A DNA stretch of 26,518 nt from a virus. Below the pieces are notes generated by a model. It did no database searches. It was given only the letters and a program-made list of their open reading frames with translations, and was not told the origin of the DNA. Below are positions 5,536 to 14,367 of the stretch, one piece after another; the first letter of the stretch is position 1; each line of letters starts with the position of its first letter. Both the position numbers and the translations under genes were made by a program. The stretch is from positions 1 through 26,518 of the IMG/VR virus record IMGVR_UViG_3300017719_000160; one strand, 5' to 3'.

Positions 5536-7239
5536 ATGGCGTATTTTAAGCGCGACAGATTTAGTGGTACTGCACCGGGCGTGTCACCGCGTCTCTTATC
5601 TGAGCAGTTTGCCCAGATAGCCGAGAACATTGATTTTGAGTCAGGCCGTTTACAACCCGTAACAACGGATGCTGACGCATTTACCCTTAGCAACAGCCAA
5701 AGACGCTCTATTTTCTTCTACCGCGATACCAATTGGTTGCAGTGGAATGACGATGGAGTGTCCGTGGTCGAGGGTCCAATACCGGCTGATACATTAGACC
5801 GTCTGTACTGGACCGGGGAAGACTACCCACGTATGGGCACTGCTTCTACAATTGTGGCTGGCGCTAGCTACCCGGCTGCAAGCTACAGGCTAGGTGTTCC
5901 AGCCCCTGCAACTGCCCCCATAATAAGTAAAACCGGTACTGCCGACGACACACAAACGCCTGACGATGTAGCGTACGTTTATACGTTCGTCACTGCTTTC
6001 GGAGAAGAAGGTCCGCCTAGCCCCGCAAGTAACGTATTAGAGCGTACTGATACTGAGACCGTCACTATTCCAATGCCCTCTAATCAGCACCCAAGTGGTA
6101 ACTACAACTTGGGTACGGGCGCTAAAAAACGTATCTACCGCTCAAATACAGGTAGCACCAACACAACTTTTCAGTTCGTCGCGGAGGTGTCTTTTGCCAC
6201 AACAACGTATGATGACAGCTCTGAATCCTTTGCTTTGGGTGAAGTACTTCCTAGCGGCACTTGGATTGGTCCGCCAGATGACGACACAAGCTTGTACCCT
6301 AATGGTCCACTTTCCGGTCTTATCGCTGTTGCTAACGGCGTTTTTGCTGGTTTCTCTGGAAAGAGACTGTGCCTCAGCGAGCCTTTTTTGCCCCACGCAT
6401 GGCCCATCGACTACAGAATAACCCTTGAAGAAGACATCGTAGCAATAGGCTCCGTGACTAACGGAGTCGTTGCCCTGACTGATGGCGCTCCTTATTTTGT
6501 TACAGGCGTTGACCCCAGTGCGATGACAGCAGTCAAGCTCGACATCGCTCAGGCTTGCGTGAACAGCAGAAGTGTCGTCGACATGGGTGAGTACTTGCTG
6601 TACGCAGGGCCAGACGGCTTAGTTGCCGTGTCTGGAGGTGATGGCGAAGTCGTTACCAATGGCCTGATCTCTGTAAAACAATGGAACGCTGACTTTAACC
6701 CGACAACGCTTAGGGCTTTCCGCCACGAGAACACATACGTTGCTTTCTGGAATGGCGGCGGATTTGTGTACGATCCAAGGGGGGAAGAGGCTACGCTTTC
6801 TAACCTTAGCTATACGGGCGAGGTGCGCGGTGGATACATGCACCCCAAGGACGGTGAGCTGTACATAATTATTGGTAATAAGATCAAAAAGTACCGTGGT
6901 GGTACAACTAATAAGACTTTAAAATGGAAGTCGAAACAGTACGTCACACCTAAACCAGTAAGTATGGGGTGGGTGTCGGTTCACGCTCAGGACTATCCAG
7001 TCACTGTGCGAGTTTGGGCCGATGGGGTGCAAATCGCTGTTTACTCGCTTTCATATTCAAACAACGCGTACACGCAGTCAGTGACTGTTCCGTCCGGCGC
7101 TTCGTCGGGCACGTTACGCGAGCCTATTATGAGATTGCCTGCTGTTGTAGGCCAAGTCTGGGAGGTAGAAGTAGAAGGTGCTGTGGATATCGATGAGGTC
7201 TGTCTCGCCCAAAGTATGGACGAGATAGCAGCCCTATGA
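5536..7239 (+). CDS. Virion structural protein, probable beta-propeller tail nozzle/hub type (567 aa)
   Basis: Strong ribosome site (GAGGTAGCT-ATG). The N-terminal 30 residues (FSGTAPGVSPRLLSEQFAQIAENIDFESGRLQP) resemble the opening of phage nozzle and stabilisation proteins, which begin with a peptide of the type 'x-P-x-x-[LV]-x-x-x-A-x-x-A-x-N'. A fibronectin-like stretch follows (about 130-230), then repeated four-strand blade patterns (LIAVANGVFAGFSGKRLCLSEP, VVALTDGAPYFVTGVDPS, YLLYAGPDGLVAVSGGDGEVVT). These suggest a propeller like P22 gp10 or T7 gp12; that comparison rests on fold pattern, not on close identity. The stop overlaps the ATG of the giant tail gene in ATGA. It probably sits at the tail and binds the next gene's product. 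Confidence 0.72.
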   Translation: MAYFKRDRFSGTAPGVSPRLLSEQFAQIAENIDFESGRLQPVTTDADAFTLSNSQRRSIFFYRDTNWLQWNDDGVSVVEGPIPADTLDRLYWTGEDYPRMGTASTIVAGASYPAASYRLGVPAPATAPIISKTGTADDTQTPDDVAYVYTFVTAFGEEGPPSPASNVLERTDTETVTIPMPSNQHPSGNYNLGTGAKKRIYRSNTGSTNTTFQFVAEVSFATTTYDDSSESFALGEVLPSGTWIGPPDDDTSLYPNGPLSGLIAVANGVFAGFSGKRLCLSEPFLPHAWPIDYRITLEEDIVAIGSVTNGVVALTDGAPYFVTGVDPSAMTAVKLDIAQACVNSRSVVDMGEYLLYAGPDGLVAVSGGDGEVVTNGLISVKQWNADFNPTTLRAFRHENTYVAFWNGGGFVYDPRGEEATLSNLSYTGEVRGGYMHPKDGELYIIIGNKIKKYRGGTTNKTLKWKSKQYVTPKPVSMGWVSVHAQDYPVTVRVWADGVQIAVYSLSYSNNAYTQSVTVPSGASSGTLREPIMRLPAVVGQVWEVEVEGAVDIDEVCLAQSMDEIAAL

Positions 7240-10200
7240 CTGTGCGGACAATTAAACCGACGAAGGTTCCGGGGATACCCAAACCGCCTTCGGACGTTTC
7301 CATACAGTTAAGGAGGTATCTTGATAGTCTTTCTGAAGCACTTGAAATTAGGTTGGGAAGAAGGGGCGATGTACGCGACCGTGCTATTACCCTTCGTGAG
7401 CTTATTGATTCAGGTCTTGCCGTTGATTTAGCTAGCAATCCCTTTAATCCTAGTAACCCAGGCGGTGATTTTAACGCTAACCCCAATCCGGGGTCTGGCG
7501 ATGTAGAAGACCCAACAGCTCCCACAGGCGTTACTGGCGCGGGCGGGTACGCCGTTGCTCAGATATATTGGGATCTTCCGACGTATCGCGGACACTCTTT
7601 CACTGAGATATGGCGCTTCGATGCTGACACAATTGGTGACGCAATACTTGTCGGAGTCAGCTCCGGTATTTCCTTCGTAGATCCAATTGGCGCAGGGCTT
7701 ACTCGGTACTATTGGCTTCGGCACGTTAATACTAACTCAGTTCCGGGGCCGTACCACGCGTCGTCCGGCTTAGAAATTGCTACTGCTACAGACGTTGAAC
7801 GCATAATCGATATTATTACGGGCGCTATCACTGAGTCCGAGTTAGCCGCCGCGTTAAGCACTAGGATTGACTTAATTGACTCGGCTGCGGACGTAGCAGG
7901 CTCTGTTGCAGCACAAGTAGCTGCGGAAGCAAATGCCCGTGCTTCGGCCATAGGTGCTGAGGCCGTGGCGCGTGGTCTCGCTATTACTAGCGCGATAGAT
8001 CAAGAGGTTATAGACAGGAATGGCGCTATTTCTAGCTCTGTTGCGGCGGAGGTAGTCAATCGAGGAACAGCGATAAGCACTGCCGTTAGCGCAGAATCTA
8101 CTGCTCGTGCGAGCGCGATAACTGCTGAAGCAGCTGCTAGAGCGACGGCTATTACAAATGCTTCTAATACTTTGCAGAGCCAGCTAAACGATATTGTCGG
8201 AGTGGCAGCCTATTCTGGGTCAACTACTTATGCTGTTGACGACTTAGTTACCTACAACGGGTCTCTCTACAAAGCTCTGCAAAGCTCTACGAACAACCTG
8301 CCTACTAATACAACATACTGGGAATTGATAGGCGACTACGACAGTCTAGCGGATGTCGTGTCAGCCAACTCCGCGTCTATTACATCTCTGAATACAGTGA
8401 GTAGCTCTTCATCTTCGGCTGCCGCACAAGCGATCGCGGGGCTGCAGTCTACTGTTAACGACGCAAATACCGGGCTACCAGCTACGCGGTCGCTACTTGT
8501 AAACAGTTACTCTACTACTGCAGACATGAACTCCGCGATTACTACAGCTACGACTGGGTTGGTCGCGTCTACTACACTAAATGACTATGTCACTAGCTCT
8601 CACTTAACAACGAACTACTCGACGTCATCAGATATGACGTCGGCGATTAGTACGGCTACTCAGTCGCTCGTTTCAAATACGGCTTTATCAACAGCGCTTT
8701 CGCCGTACGCAACTACGGCTACACTGACTACTGATTACTTGACGGCGACTGACACTAACAACGCGATATCTACCGCTACCACTGGGCTAGCGGCAACTAC
8801 AGACCTTAATAACTATGTTACCTCTTCGCACCTAACGAATAATTACCTTACTTCGACGGGCGTAACCGGGGCGATTACGCAGGCAACCCAAAACCTTGTA
8901 GCGTCATCCACGCTTGACGACTATGTTACTGACAGCGCGCTAACTTCTAGTCTTAGTCCATACGTGACAACCTCCACGCTCACGACTAATTACCTGACCG
9001 AAACAGAGACAACTAGTGCGATATCCTCGGCGACTCAAAGCCTAGTATCCAATACTGATTTATCAACAGAGCTAAGCGACTACGCGACAACGGCTACTCT
9101 GACAAACGATTACCTAACTGCAACAGATACTAACAGCGCGATATCTACTGCTACACAGAACTTAGTGTCAAACACTACGCTAGCCGCTTATGCCACGAAC
9201 GCTACGTTAACTAATGACTATTACACGCAGACCGATACTGACTCGGCAATCTCTACAGCTACGCAGAGCCTTGTGTCCACAACAGACCTGACAACCGCTC
9301 TATCACCATATGCAACAACGTCCACGCTTACTAATAATTACTACACGAGCACAGAAGCGGACTCTGCAATTTCGCAAGCGACGCAGAACTTAGTGTCAAA
9401 TACTGCGCTGAATGGGTACGTTACAAATAGCACACTGACAAATAGCTATTACACAATTACTGAGGCGGATTCTGCTATAAGCTCCGCTACGCAGAACTTA
9501 GTTTCAACTACCGACCTTAGTACCGCGCTAAACCCCTATGTTCAGAACTCTACGCTAACCAACAGCTACTACACAATTACAGAAGCCGACGCTGCGATTA
9601 GCTCGGCTACACAGAGTTTGGTGTCGACCTCAACGCTTGCCGATGAGTTGGTTGACTACGTTTCAGACAGTGAGCTAGACACTACGCTTGACGACTACAC
9701 GACTACATCAACGCTGACAAACAACTACTACACCCGCACTCAGGCGGACAGCGCAATTAGCACAGCAACACAGAGCCTCGCGTCCACAACAGATTTGACA
9801 AACGCGCTGGGTAGCTACGTTACGACGAGTACACTTACCAATGGTTACTACACAAGCACTGAAGCTGATAGTGCAATTAGTAATGCAACACAGAGTCTGG
9901 TTTCAACCACTGGCCTAAACACCGCGCTTGGCGCGTACCCCACGACCTCTTATCTGACTACGAACTATCTAACTGAAACGGAAACAGATAGCGCAATCAG
10001 CACGGCGACTCAGAACCTTGTCTCAAACACAGGCTTAGCGACAGAGCTTGCGGATTATGCGACTAACGCCACGTTGACTAACAGCTACTTGACCTCGACG
10101 GAGACTACTTCTGCAATATCTCAGGCGACTCAGAACCTCGTGTCTCAGACGGATCTTGCTGATGATCTTGGTGATTACGCTACTACTGCGACCCTGACTA

Positions 10201-11921
10201 ACAACTATTTAACAGAGACAGAGACGAACAGCGCTATCAGCACAGCGACCCAAAGTCTCGTTTCGACTACCGATCTAAGTAATTCGTTGGGCGGCTACGT
10301 AACAAACAGCACACTTACCAACAACTATTACACTCAGACCGATACCGACTCGGCGATCTCTACAGCTACTCAGAACCTTGTGTCTACATCAGGGTTAAAC
10401 ACGGCGCTAGGTAGCTACACTACAACGTCTAACCTGACGACTAACTATTACACGAAGACACAGGCTGACTCCGCGATTTCCCAAGCCACCACGACTCTTG
10501 TTTCAACTACTGCTTTAGACACCGCGTTGGATGACTACGTTACTGACACGGATCAGACAACCGCTTTGTCTGCGTACGCGACTACTGCGACGTTGCAGAA
10601 CGACTACTCAACCACAACCGACATGAACTCGGCTATTAGTAGTGCTACTACAAGTCTGGTTTCGACCTCTGATTTAGGTGACTACGCTACGACGGCTGCC
10701 GTGCAACAGAACTTCTTTTCCAAGGCGGAGGGAGAAGATCTGGAGGCGCAGTACACAGTAAAGGTAGATCTAAATGGAGCTGTGGCGGGCTTTGGGTTAG
10801 CGTCTACGACTACGGCTTCGGGCAATATAGTCAGTGAGTTTGTTGTTAACGCAGACCGCTTTGCTTTGCTTGGTAGTGCTTCCGACACAGGTAACCCCAC
10901 CGTTCCGTTTTCTGTTATTACAAGCGCTACTACTATTAACGGCGAGTCTGTGCCTGCCGGTGTGTATATCGCAGATGGGTTTATAAAGAATGGCACCATC
11001 ACCAATGCAAAGATAGGTGACGCTGCGATTGATAACGCTAAGATTGCCAGCTTGTCCGCAGATAAGATAACTGCGGGCACGATAAGCACTAATCGTCTTA
11101 ATATTGATAGCACTACTCTTACGTCGGACCCCAATACTGGCGCGCTTCAGGTAAACGCTATACAAGCTAATCAGATAACTTCTGGAAGCATCAGCGCAAG
11201 TATCATGACCGGCACCACTGTTTACGCCGATAACTTAGTGGGCGACGTTGCTGTTCTTCTGCCTTTCAGATCAACGTCAAGCGTTTCATTTCGCGGCTCA
11301 AGCGCGTCTGGTGGTGGTACGGTAGTAGTTACTACTCAGCAGCTTCCGGCTACAACACACTCTACTAATGGGCATACGCCTTTTGCCTCGATCACTGGGT
11401 GGTATGACTCGACGTCGAACAAGACCTATAGATTCCGGCTGTACATGCAAAACGCCTCAGGCACCTCAGCTTCGTTGGGGGCAGCCACGTACGCTTTTAA
11501 CTACGGAGGCTCAACGTGGGTAAAGTTTGCTGGTGACAAAAGAAGTTTAGTCTCTGCTGGAGCAACGCTTACGGCGACTGGCAAGTCCCACACAGCTACG
11601 ACGGTTTACTACGATACTAGTGGCAATTACACGCAGGTGTTTTACACCATCTCCAGTGGAGCGGCGTTTGCTACAGGCAACGTGATTTCAGTGGGCGCAT
11701 CCAGCGCATACCAGCTGGTTGGGGAAACGCGCTTTAAAGCCAACACAAATCTTTACGCTCAGTTTGCGGTAAGCGGTTCTCTTTCAAACAAAACGCTAGG
11801 GGCAGTAAACATGAAACTGGAGGTCACTAGGTACGGGGCTTCTGGTATTTATGACTCCGACAACTCTACTGCAAGCGATGTTATACACGAGGTCTCCGGC
11901 TTTATTATGGGAGCTAGATGA
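7236..11921 (+). CDS. Giant J-like tail tip/fibre protein with FN3, CBM5/12-like, repeat array and DUF1983 regions (1561 aa)
   Basis: Order of parts: N-terminal domain (1-65); Asn/Pro/Gly linker (66-90); fibronectin III-like domain (about 90-185); Ala-rich helical segment with 14-16-residue repeats such as ARASAI (200-310); a carbohydrate-binding CBM5/12-like patch YSGSTTYAVDDLVTYNGSLYK with YWELIGDY (321-368); 17 tandem repeats (437-1135); a lambda gpJ-type DUF1983 region with AQYTVKVDLNGAVAGFGLAS and VNADRFALL (about 1165-1290); and a beta-rich C-terminal domain. In gpJ relatives this region forms the central tail fibre that recognises the host. ATGA overlaps join it to both neighbours. Codon choice is very Thr/Ser/Ala-biased within the repeats. 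Confidence 0.85.
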   Translation: MTVRTIKPTKVPGIPKPPSDVSIQLRRYLDSLSEALEIRLGRRGDVRDRAITLRELIDSGLAVDLASNPFNPSNPGGDFNANPNPGSGDVEDPTAPTGVTGAGGYAVAQIYWDLPTYRGHSFTEIWRFDADTIGDAILVGVSSGISFVDPIGAGLTRYYWLRHVNTNSVPGPYHASSGLEIATATDVERIIDIITGAITESELAAALSTRIDLIDSAADVAGSVAAQVAAEANARASAIGAEAVARGLAITSAIDQEVIDRNGAISSSVAAEVVNRGTAISTAVSAESTARASAITAEAAARATAITNASNTLQSQLNDIVGVAAYSGSTTYAVDDLVTYNGSLYKALQSSTNNLPTNTTYWELIGDYDSLADVVSANSASITSLNTVSSSSSSAAAQAIAGLQSTVNDANTGLPATRSLLVNSYSTTADMNSAITTATTGLVASTTLNDYVTSSHLTTNYSTSSDMTSAISTATQSLVSNTALSTALSPYATTATLTTDYLTATDTNNAISTATTGLAATTDLNNYVTSSHLTNNYLTSTGVTGAITQATQNLVASSTLDDYVTDSALTSSLSPYVTTSTLTTNYLTETETTSAISSATQSLVSNTDLSTELSDYATTATLTNDYLTATDTNSAISTATQNLVSNTTLAAYATNATLTNDYYTQTDTDSAISTATQSLVSTTDLTTALSPYATTSTLTNNYYTSTEADSAISQATQNLVSNTALNGYVTNSTLTNSYYTITEADSAISSATQNLVSTTDLSTALNPYVQNSTLTNSYYTITEADAAISSATQSLVSTSTLADELVDYVSDSELDTTLDDYTTTSTLTNNYYTRTQADSAISTATQSLASTTDLTNALGSYVTTSTLTNGYYTSTEADSAISNATQSLVSTTGLNTALGAYPTTSYLTTNYLTETETDSAISTATQNLVSNTGLATELADYATNATLTNSYLTSTETTSAISQATQNLVSQTDLADDLGDYATTATLTNNYLTETETNSAISTATQSLVSTTDLSNSLGGYVTNSTLTNNYYTQTDTDSAISTATQNLVSTSGLNTALGSYTTTSNLTTNYYTKTQADSAISQATTTLVSTTALDTALDDYVTDTDQTTALSAYATTATLQNDYSTTTDMNSAISSATTSLVSTSDLGDYATTAAVQQNFFSKAEGEDLEAQYTVKVDLNGAVAGFGLASTTTASGNIVSEFVVNADRFALLGSASDTGNPTVPFSVITSATTINGESVPAGVYIADGFIKNGTITNAKIGDAAIDNAKIASLSADKITAGTISTNRLNIDSTTLTSDPNTGALQVNAIQANQITSGSISASIMTGTTVYADNLVGDVAVLLPFRSTSSVSFRGSSASGGGTVVVTTQQLPATTHSTNGHTPFASITGWYDSTSNKTYRFRLYMQNASGTSASLGAATYAFNYGGSTWVKFAGDKRSLVSAGATLTATGKSHTATTVYYDTSGNYTQVFYTISSGAAFATGNVISVGASSAYQLVGETRFKANTNLYAQFAVSGSLSNKTLGAVNMKLEVTRYGASGIYDSDNSTASDVIHEVSGFIMGAR
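8544..10640 (+). repeat. In-frame tandem array: 17 units of 36/40/49/53 codons inside the giant tail gene
   Basis: Each unit reads roughly (S/T/Q)ATQ(S/N)LVS-x-T-x-L...Y-x-T-x-(S/A)TLTN-(N/S)Y(Y/L)T-x-(T/S)(E/D)-x-x-SAIS. Unit lengths in order are 36, 40, 36, 49, 40, 36, 40, 36, 40, 53, 40 (six times) and 53, total 699 codons. A partial 18th unit follows. The 40-residue form has 4 extra residues after the conserved Leu; the 49 and 53 forms have 13 more. The DNA copies differ at many silent sites, so the array is not a recent duplication. Confidence 0.9.
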
Positions 11922-12388: not shown

Positions 12389-12607
12389 ATGGATGCAGTT
12401 AACAACCCGCCGCACTATAAGACTGGCGACATTGAATGCATAGATGCAATCAAAGCGTCTATGTCTTCTGAGCAATTCATCGGTTATCTCAAAGGCAACG
12501 TAGAAAAATACGTATGGCGTATGTCATACAAAGGCCGTCCGGTCGAGGATTTGCGTAAGGCTCGCTGGTATCTAGAAAGATTATTAGAGGAGCTAGTAGA
12601 TGACTGA
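12389..12607 (+). CDS. DUF3310 protein, T7 gp1.7-related (72 aa)
   Basis: The whole protein follows the DUF3310 pattern: VNNPPHYKTGDIECIDAI, then F-I-GYLKGNVEKYVWRM, then G-x-P-x-EDLRKARWYLERLL. The family includes T7 gp1.7, reported as a nucleotide kinase; small stand-alone members occur in many phages and their activity is not settled. It probably acts in nucleotide supply. It overlaps the next gene by 8 bases. Being on the left-arm strand but with its own operator, it may be expressed separately from the tail genes. Confidence 0.88.
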   Translation: MDAVNNPPHYKTGDIECIDAIKASMSSEQFIGYLKGNVEKYVWRMSYKGRPVEDLRKARWYLERLLEELVDD

Positions 12608-12821
12608 GTGGATGTTAAATAAGTACGGGCCTTTTATGGACGTCAGCGAGCTTGCGGACGTGCTTAAAATCCAACGGACTACACTGTACAACCAGCTATA
12701 CCAAGACAAGGTTTCCATACCTTATGTGAAGCGGGGAAAGAAGTATTTGTTTCCTACTACAGAGGTCGTTGCTCACATGGAAGCCGGGCTTCGTAGGCAG
12801 TCGACAGCGCTTGTGGACTAA
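12600..12821 (+). CDS. AlpA/Xis-like helix-turn-helix DNA-binding protein, excisionase candidate (73 aa)
   Basis: The central 50 residues read as a winged helix-turn-helix of the HTH_17 (MerR/AlpA/excisionase) type: FMDVSELADVLKIQRTTLYNQL, then the wing SIPYVKRGKKYLFPTTEVVAHM. Proteins of this type are often excisionases or small activators placed beside an integrase. The gene overlaps DUF3310 by 8 bases at its start, with GAGGAG upstream. Its last 65 bases overlap the end of the integrase gene on the other strand. A directional partner for the integrase is the best guess; a transcription factor remains possible. Confidence 0.75.
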   Translation: MTEWMLNKYGPFMDVSELADVLKIQRTTLYNQLYQDKVSIPYVKRGKKYLFPTTEVVAHMEAGLRRQSTALVD

Positions 12822-13803
12822 GCTGAGTATACCGCTTTAAACTAGTCCACGTTTTGTGACCACTTATCGCAGCAACCTCCGGGATAGTCATTCCTTTTTC
12901 AAACATCCGACTAATTGCCTCATGTCGTAGGTCATGAAATCGCAAGTCGTCGATGTTTGCCTTCTTAGTTAGTTTAGCGAATTTATCGCTAACACTGGTC
13001 GCGAGGAGAACGTCCTCAAACACCCTACCACCCTGCTTACTTTGCTGCTTTTCACGTAGGAGCGCCTCTCTTGACACCGGTAATAGTGGTATCAGCTGGT
13101 CGTTTCCCGCCTTTTGCTTCGGGTCTTTTCGGTTACGGATGAGCAACGTACCACGGTCGAAGTCCACGTCTGCCCATTCAAGAGCGTGTATTTCTGCTTG
13201 CCGCATGCCTGTTTCGACTGCTATGCGAATCATTGGAGCGATCCAGCTCTTACTTGCCAGACGGAGCAGGGTTTCTAGTTCGTTGTTCGTGGGTCGTCGT
13301 CCACGTTTCCTGCTGCCTTGGATCATATCTAGCTGGGACATGACACCCATTGCTGAGCGCACAGGGTTATCTTTTATGGGTGCATTCCAAAGTGTGCGTG
13401 ACACATCTATAGCTTGCGCAAAGTAGGTGAGTTCTTGGTTAAGAGTGGAGGGGGCTATTTCTCCGGCACGCTGTTTTGCGTAGGATAAAATGAAAGCAGG
13501 AGTAAGGTCGGAAAGACGCACATGCCCGACTCTTCTAGCCGTGCTTCTTACGGTTGCTAGTTTACTTTTACCGAAGGGTTTGACTCCGTGAATTTCGGCG
13601 ATGTACCGGCGAAATAATGAATCAAGATTTGTGATACGTGCTTCACGGTCCGAGAGCCACGATCCGTTGTTCATTGCGGCTTCAGTTTGTAAGCCCCATT
13701 CTTTAGCAGCTGTGATTGATGCGAAGGTACGGTGTTCGGGTTTGAATCCTGCTTTGCGTACGCGTGCTACATATAACCCGCGCTTTTTTGTTATTGAGGC
13801 CAA
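12757..13803 (-). CDS. int: Tyrosine-family site-specific integrase (348 aa)
   Basis: Full-length phage integrase. Residues 1-45 resemble an arm-binding N-terminal domain (KRGLYVARVRKAGFK...F-x-x-x-x-x-A-x-x-W), 55-150 the core-binding SAM-like domain, and 170-335 the catalytic domain. Catalytic residues are in place: R201 (ETGMRQAEIHALEW), K226 in the beta-hairpin, H290-x2-R293 (HDLRH), H316 (GHKTW) and Y325 (KRYTQL). It breaks and joins DNA between phage and host attachment sites. The start appears to be TTG at 13803, with GGAG 6 bases upstream; the frame has no ATG or GTG between there and the preceding stop. The candidate attP core lies 71 bp upstream of this start. Confidence 0.95.
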   Translation of the reverse strand: MASITKKRGLYVARVRKAGFKPEHRTFASITAAKEWGLQTEAAMNNGSWLSDREARITNLDSLFRRYIAEIHGVKPFGKSKLATVRSTARRVGHVRLSDLTPAFILSYAKQRAGEIAPSTLNQELTYFAQAIDVSRTLWNAPIKDNPVRSAMGVMSQLDMIQGSRKRGRRPTNNELETLLRLASKSWIAPMIRIAVETGMRQAEIHALEWADVDFDRGTLLIRNRKDPKQKAGNDQLIPLLPVSREALLREKQQSKQGGRVFEDVLLATSVSDKFAKLTKKANIDDLRFHDLRHEAISRMFEKGMTIPEVAAISGHKTWTSLKRYTQLSPQALSTAYEARLPCEQRPL

Positions 13804-13804
13804 G

Positions 13805-13996
13805 TGTCGCTCCAGTGTCGCCAGAGCAAATCTTACTCGATTAACTGCATGTTTTTCAACGATATTTACTGATTGGCGGAGAGAGAGGGATTTTCTCCGT
13901 TCGCAGGCACGATACTATTAAAATCAACACTTTAGTACACTTTGTAGGCTCGCTAAGTCACTGATAGTTCATTTTGTTTGGTATTGAACTGTCGCC
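13805..13996. repeat. TGTCGCY direct repeats flanking attP core, possible integrase arm sites
   Basis: TGTCGCT at 13805-13811, TGTCGCC at 13816-13822 and TGTCGCC at 13990-13996 lie on both sides of the core. The first two are 11 bp apart, one helical turn. The eight-base form TGTCGCCA is shared by the second and third copies. CACTTT also occurs twice at about 13928-13943. This spacing fits arm-type sites, but the elements are short. Confidence 0.4.
13874..13892 (-). other. attP: Candidate attP core: identical to the 3' end of a tRNA-Ser gene
   Basis: On the + strand this is TGGCGGAGAGAGAGGGATT. On the - strand it reads AATCCCTCTCTCTCCGCCA: the last bases of a T loop, the 3' T-stem strand CCCTC, the acceptor strand TCTCTCC, the discriminator G and CCA. 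The match to a typical bacterial tRNA-Ser 3' end stops where the rest of the T loop (TTCG) should follow, so this is not a tRNA gene. Integration here would rebuild the 3' end of the host tRNA gene. The position next to int is the usual one. Confidence 0.8.
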
Positions 13997-14001
13997 AAAC
14001 G

Positions 14002-14367
14002 TCACTTAAGGGTAGGGCGTATCGTTAGAGAGCCATCTTTGTTGACAGTAGCTACCCACCGTTTAGACAAGTCTATTGAGACCTTTGTACGTTTGCCTGT
14101 GGGGAAGGATAAGTATTGCGGGTATTCAGCAAAGTCTGCTGTGGGGTCGATTTCTTTCGGGTCAACGCCCAGAAAATTAGCGAGCTTTACTACGGCAGGA
14201 GCGTTTAGTTCGGTTATTTGATTCAGGTATTGAGCTAGCGCGCCTTGCGTCCAGCCTAGTTTCTTTGCGGCTTCTGTCTGCGTTAGTCCTATTTCAGACT
14301 TTCTTAGGTCCCAAATCTTTCGCAGGTTGTTAGCAGCCACTGAAGATTCCTTCTTCTTCGTGGTCAT
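14002..14367 (-). CDS. XRE/Cro-CI-type helix-turn-helix repressor (121 aa)
   Basis: Residues 13-75 form an XRE helix-turn-helix: NNLRKIWDLRKSEIGLTQTEAAKKLG, WTQGALAQYLNQ, then LNAPAVVKLANFLGVDPKEIDP. The turn and recognition helix lie around 29-50. The C-terminal 45 residues are short and beta-rich (RTKVSIDLSKRWVATVNKDGSLTIRP), with no LexA/CI-type protease domain. It is the last gene of the - strand operon, overlaps the nuclease gene by 38 bases and lies next to int/attP, a usual place for a lysogeny regulator. It is the best candidate to bind the six ATTAG-N5-CTAAT sites; operator C heads its operon, which would make it self-regulated. Confidence 0.88.
   Translation of the reverse strand: MTTKKKESSVAANNLRKIWDLRKSEIGLTQTEAAKKLGWTQGALAQYLNQITELNAPAVVKLANFLGVDPKEIDPTADFAEYPQYLSFPTGKRTKVSIDLSKRWVATVNKDGSLTIRPTLK

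Follow-up and report, generated by a model that had tools for sequence, protein, structure and literature searches.

Elements that target tRNA genes with a tyrosine integrase, such as those catalogued in Islander (PMC4383910), carry a core identical to the 3′ end of a tRNA gene, keep the integrase adjacent to that core, and restore their target upon integration; a tRNA-directed attP is ordinary, and its mechanism is already known. In marine metagenomic phages, uncultured contigs with an integrase and a tRNA fragment have been matched to hosts through stretches of 36–46 bp, with phylum- or class-level host assignment expected from attP–tRNA matching alone (PMC3861242), and short att matches have been called not discriminative (PMC5831537). 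At the regulatory level, the promoter of the KplE1 integrase gene intS overlaps the att region, and autoregulation has been shown (PMC2951348).

Here, we describe a locus of this kind in a 26.5-kb IMG/VR virus record (IMGVR_UViG_3300017719_000160, 26,518 nucleotides, analyzed whole and hereafter called the window). By primase, the nearest annotated phages are Pseudomonas phages KPP25/phiR18 and Aeromonas phage phiA008, which share primase, polymerase, helicase, exonuclease, and gp34-like genes with the window at roughly 30–38% identity, phiA008 also having a similar gene order. However, profile searches up to an E-value of 10 revealed no integrase in the KPP25/phiA008 phages, whereas the window has a putative attP, an integrase, and helix-turn-helix (HTH) genes at the point where its two gene arms (replication and virion) join. 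No near-identical phage was found by megablast among 50,697 GenBank phage records, and genus-level membership with KPP25 (Kochitakasuvirus) or phiA008 was rejected for lack of a megablast match, the window phage being a distant relative rather than a member. The features of the junction are as follows:

12600–12821, plus strand: HTH_17 (AlpA/excisionase-like) protein (Pfam HTH_17, 1.7e-8; weak PHROG excisionase match)
12757–13803, minus strand: tyrosine integrase, 348 aa, TTG start (Pfam Phage_integrase, 8e-24; PHROG integrase, 3e-44)
13802–13812, minus strand: right arm-type repeat 2, GAGCGACACTT, a putative binding site overlapping the integrase start codon
13813–13823, minus strand: right arm-type repeat 1, TGGCGACACTG, a putative binding site
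13874–13892, minus strand: proposed attP core (20 bp, to 13893, if the host has A57), an exact single match to tRNA-Ser 3′ ends
13877–13899, minus strand: putative crossover region, with half-site CGGAGAAA, the 7-bp spacer ATCCCTC, and half-site TCTCTCCG, tentatively assigned from sequence
13987–13997, minus strand: left arm-type repeat, TGGCGACAGTT, a putative binding site
14002–14367, minus strand: HTH_3 regulator, candidate repressor (Pfam HTH_3, 7.5e-12)

To the right of the core, the HTH_3 regulator is followed by a replication operon (gp34-like protein, SNF2 helicase, exonuclease, primase, and family A polymerase), and to the left, past the integrase, lie the HTH_17 protein, fibres, and an internal virion protein. 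The integrase adjoining the core has the complete tyrosine recombinase set of R, H-x-x-R, H, and Y, and these residues (R201, H290, R293, H316, and Y325) are invariant in 11 relatives. The HTH_17 gene is convergent with the integrase gene, and its product is a candidate directionality factor. The HTH_3 gene overlaps the preceding gene and closes the replication operon beside attP; unlike in lambda-like switches, this repressor-like gene is not divergent. Elsewhere in the window (7236–11921), a fibre-like protein of 1561 aa contains a motif like TTATLTNNYLTETETNSAISTATQSLVS repeated many times.

The preliminary description had read 19 bases at this locus as the 3′ end of a tRNA-Ser, and the comparison with chromosomal tRNA-Ser genes bears this out: AATCCCTCTCTCTCCGCCA corresponds to nucleotides 58–76, comprising the last three T-loop bases, the 3′ strand of the T stem, the 3′ acceptor strand, G73, and CCA, and among the chromosomal loci read, 33 of 34 copies form the exact 3′ end of a tRNA-Ser called by ARAGORN. 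In the window, it occurs exactly once, with no other copy even at three mismatches. Together with the preceding A, it becomes a 20-mer that matches tRNA-Ser genes of the A57 type (TTCAAATCCC). The two half-sites of the putative crossover region are complementary at seven of eight bases, and its left flank, GGAGA, is kept in most close relatives; the crossover would fall in the T-loop/T-stem part of the core. The core lies 70 bp upstream of the integrase and in the same orientation, such that integration would rebuild the tRNA gene with the integrase downstream. This is the orientation that had been claimed as restoring the host tRNA gene, and it agrees with distant chromosomal relatives, in most of which the integrase likewise stands just downstream of a tRNA gene.

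The element is also conserved together with the integrase. Eight IMG/VR integrases are 71–84% identical to that of the window, and all seven whose stretch includes the upstream region (71–83% identity) have the exact core 5′ of the integrase, the two starts being 90–91 bp apart, as in the window. A 59-kb relative has the window's gene order, 66–94% protein identity, and a single copy of the core. Among more distant integrases (36–60% identity), many have an identical core upstream and some have altered but tRNA-like ends, and the core label is clustered on the integrase tree (6 changes, versus 18.4 when shuffled); no tRNA-Ser core was found upstream of the related phage integrases at L079, L080, L084, L085, L105, and L112 or at L090, L093, L095, L099, and L103. 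The 20-mer itself occurs in 29 viral (IMG/VR) stretches, 14 of which carry the window's integrase type. Ten of the remaining stretches were read, and in these the closest long open reading frame encodes another type of tyrosine integrase, often on the opposite strand with its end adjoining the core, which indicates that more than one kind of integrase uses the tRNA-Ser end. In seven viral stretches (L002, L010, L011, L014, L016, L026, and L028), the 20-mer, mostly preceded by GGGTTC, lies beside such an opposite-strand integrase, an arrangement that we read from sequence as one target reused by another integrase type with another geometry.

Beyond the core, two copies of a direct repeat occur at an 11-bp period just ahead of the integrase start, and a third copy stands to the left of the core. 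The variable bases of this repeat differ among relatives (GGGACA, GTGACA, GGTACA, TGACGCA, or TGTCGAA), and within each phage, the left and right copies agree in them. The left–right match score was 70, compared with a permuted mean of 59.8 and a maximum of 68 (5000 permutations), a result that kinship among the phages may inflate. Shuffle tests of the 11-bp repeat at single loci were mostly not significant, with only the joint left–right test convincing. Matching variable bases on the two sides would be the behavior expected of integrase arm sites. One right copy overlaps the integrase start codon, thus making autoregulation of the integrase possible: as in KplE1 (PMC2951348), the att repeats reach the integrase start, and from the sequence, self-repression is plausible in the window phage.

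Thus, we consider it highly probable that the 19–20-bp element is an attP core that the adjoining tyrosine integrase recombines with the 3′ end of a host tRNA-Ser gene. The integrase would bind arm-type repeats, one to the left of the core and two to its right, and exchange strands with the tRNA gene end, with the phage supplying tRNA nucleotides 57/58 to 76. At attL, the tRNA gene would be rebuilt and the integrase would follow it closely, reading the same way, attR would be marked by a displaced 3′ tRNA fragment, and excision may be helped by the HTH_17 protein; by this route, the window phage would form lysogens. The core, the integrase, their arrangement, and their conservation are read directly from the sequences, and the attL geometry is that of distant chromosomal relatives only. 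In gammaproteobacterial chromosomes, integrases of about 35% identity mostly follow an intact tRNA gene, with the geometry proposed for attL of the window phage; the tRNA gene has the same orientation in 11 of 15 loci checked, and these genes are of the Met, Arg, Val, Pro, Leu, Lys, and Phe types. In one genome (L180–L182, G251 contig 57), two elements in succession are delimited by three direct repeats of a tRNA-Met 3′ end, and only the first element has an integrase of the window's family; this repeat-bounded island of a distant relative has the layout expected of attL and attR.

Phage genes on both sides and a single core copy, found likewise in the 59-kb relative, indicate that the sequenced form is attP rather than an integrated end, and the earlier claim of a non-integrated molecule is upheld to this extent. 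An internal junction of tandemly integrated prophages would look alike, since it too would show phage genes flanking one core, and the contig is a linear fragment: in a check of circularity, as the preliminary description had proposed, neither the window nor the 59-kb relative showed a terminal repeat. However, the seven close relatives and the 14 contigs with the window's integrase type all have a phage-type left flank, with no tRNA body ahead of the core and no host DNA seen, such that we regard a tandem junction as improbable, and even there the site would still be an attP-type core.

Two further readings would detach the core from present-day integration. It could be a relic, if the integrase had abandoned it or the phage had stopped forming lysogens, and it is consistent with this that no close-clade lysogen was found in the genomes scanned and that the KPP25 and phiA008 relatives are without an integrase. 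Yet the core, the catalytic residues, and the arm repeats are intact and conserved across integrases of 71–84% identity, and the arm repeats change together, which leaves a relic quite unlikely. Still less credible, and in our view nearly negligible, is a chance match or the remnant of a tRNA gene with no tie to integration. The match is admittedly short (19 bp), and some phages do carry tRNA genes (L004, L009, and L024), but shuffled sequences yielded only 0.01 expected matches, even at three mismatches, the element has a fixed place beside the integrase in all close relatives, and there the 3′ end is present alone, never the tRNA body; ARAGORN found no tRNA gene in the window.

The core had further been proposed to identify the host directly, and this did not hold. 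The exact 19-mer is present in 146 of 398 Pseudomonadota genomes (37%), it ends tRNA-Ser genes with four anticodons (GCT, GGA, CGA, and TGA), and other integrases use the same end. With over a third of the sampled genomes sharing it, the core alone names no host, host assignment from it was rejected, and it gives a phylum-level hint at best. The GGGTTC-extended A57 form, found in 4 of 369 gammaproteobacterial genomes and always in tRNA-Ser GCT, could help to focus the search should the host tRNA carry A57, a base at the edge of the identity. A search for prophages that share the core as attL/attR beside a similar integrase had been suggested as well; neither a pattern-limited scan of 84,980 species genomes nor the 369 gammaproteobacterial genomes yielded one of the close clade, and no close-clade integrase was found in the orders of the four genomes with the extended form (57, 2, and 1 genomes searched), with patterns and sampling limiting these searches. 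The genome-wide integrase scan returned only a Pseudomonas relative at 34% identity and a partial match at 43%. In this, the window differs from the elements catalogued in Islander (PMC4383910), as lysogen ends of its clade were not found in the genomes scanned, and from the marine metagenomic phages (PMC3861242), as its match spans only 19–20 bp. Separately, one bacterial genome (L171) has the 19-mer with no recognized tRNA gene around it, possibly the attR of another element.

The occurrence of a 19-bp tRNA-Ser core in 37% of sampled Pseudomonadota genomes provides a base rate, and short attP–tRNA matches alone are therefore unfit for host assignment. For the phages themselves, it is minor news that distant relatives of KPP25 and phiA008 carry an integration module, which defines a testable attP/integrase pair. 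We think it likely that these phages are an uncultured, temperate group, distantly related to KPP25 and phiA008, in which no integrase was found, with an attP–integrase–regulator block at the replication/virion junction that inserts into tRNA-Ser and has arm sites co-varying within each phage. The module thus makes a temperate lifestyle likely for these uncultured phages, although their closest annotated relatives gave no integrase match.
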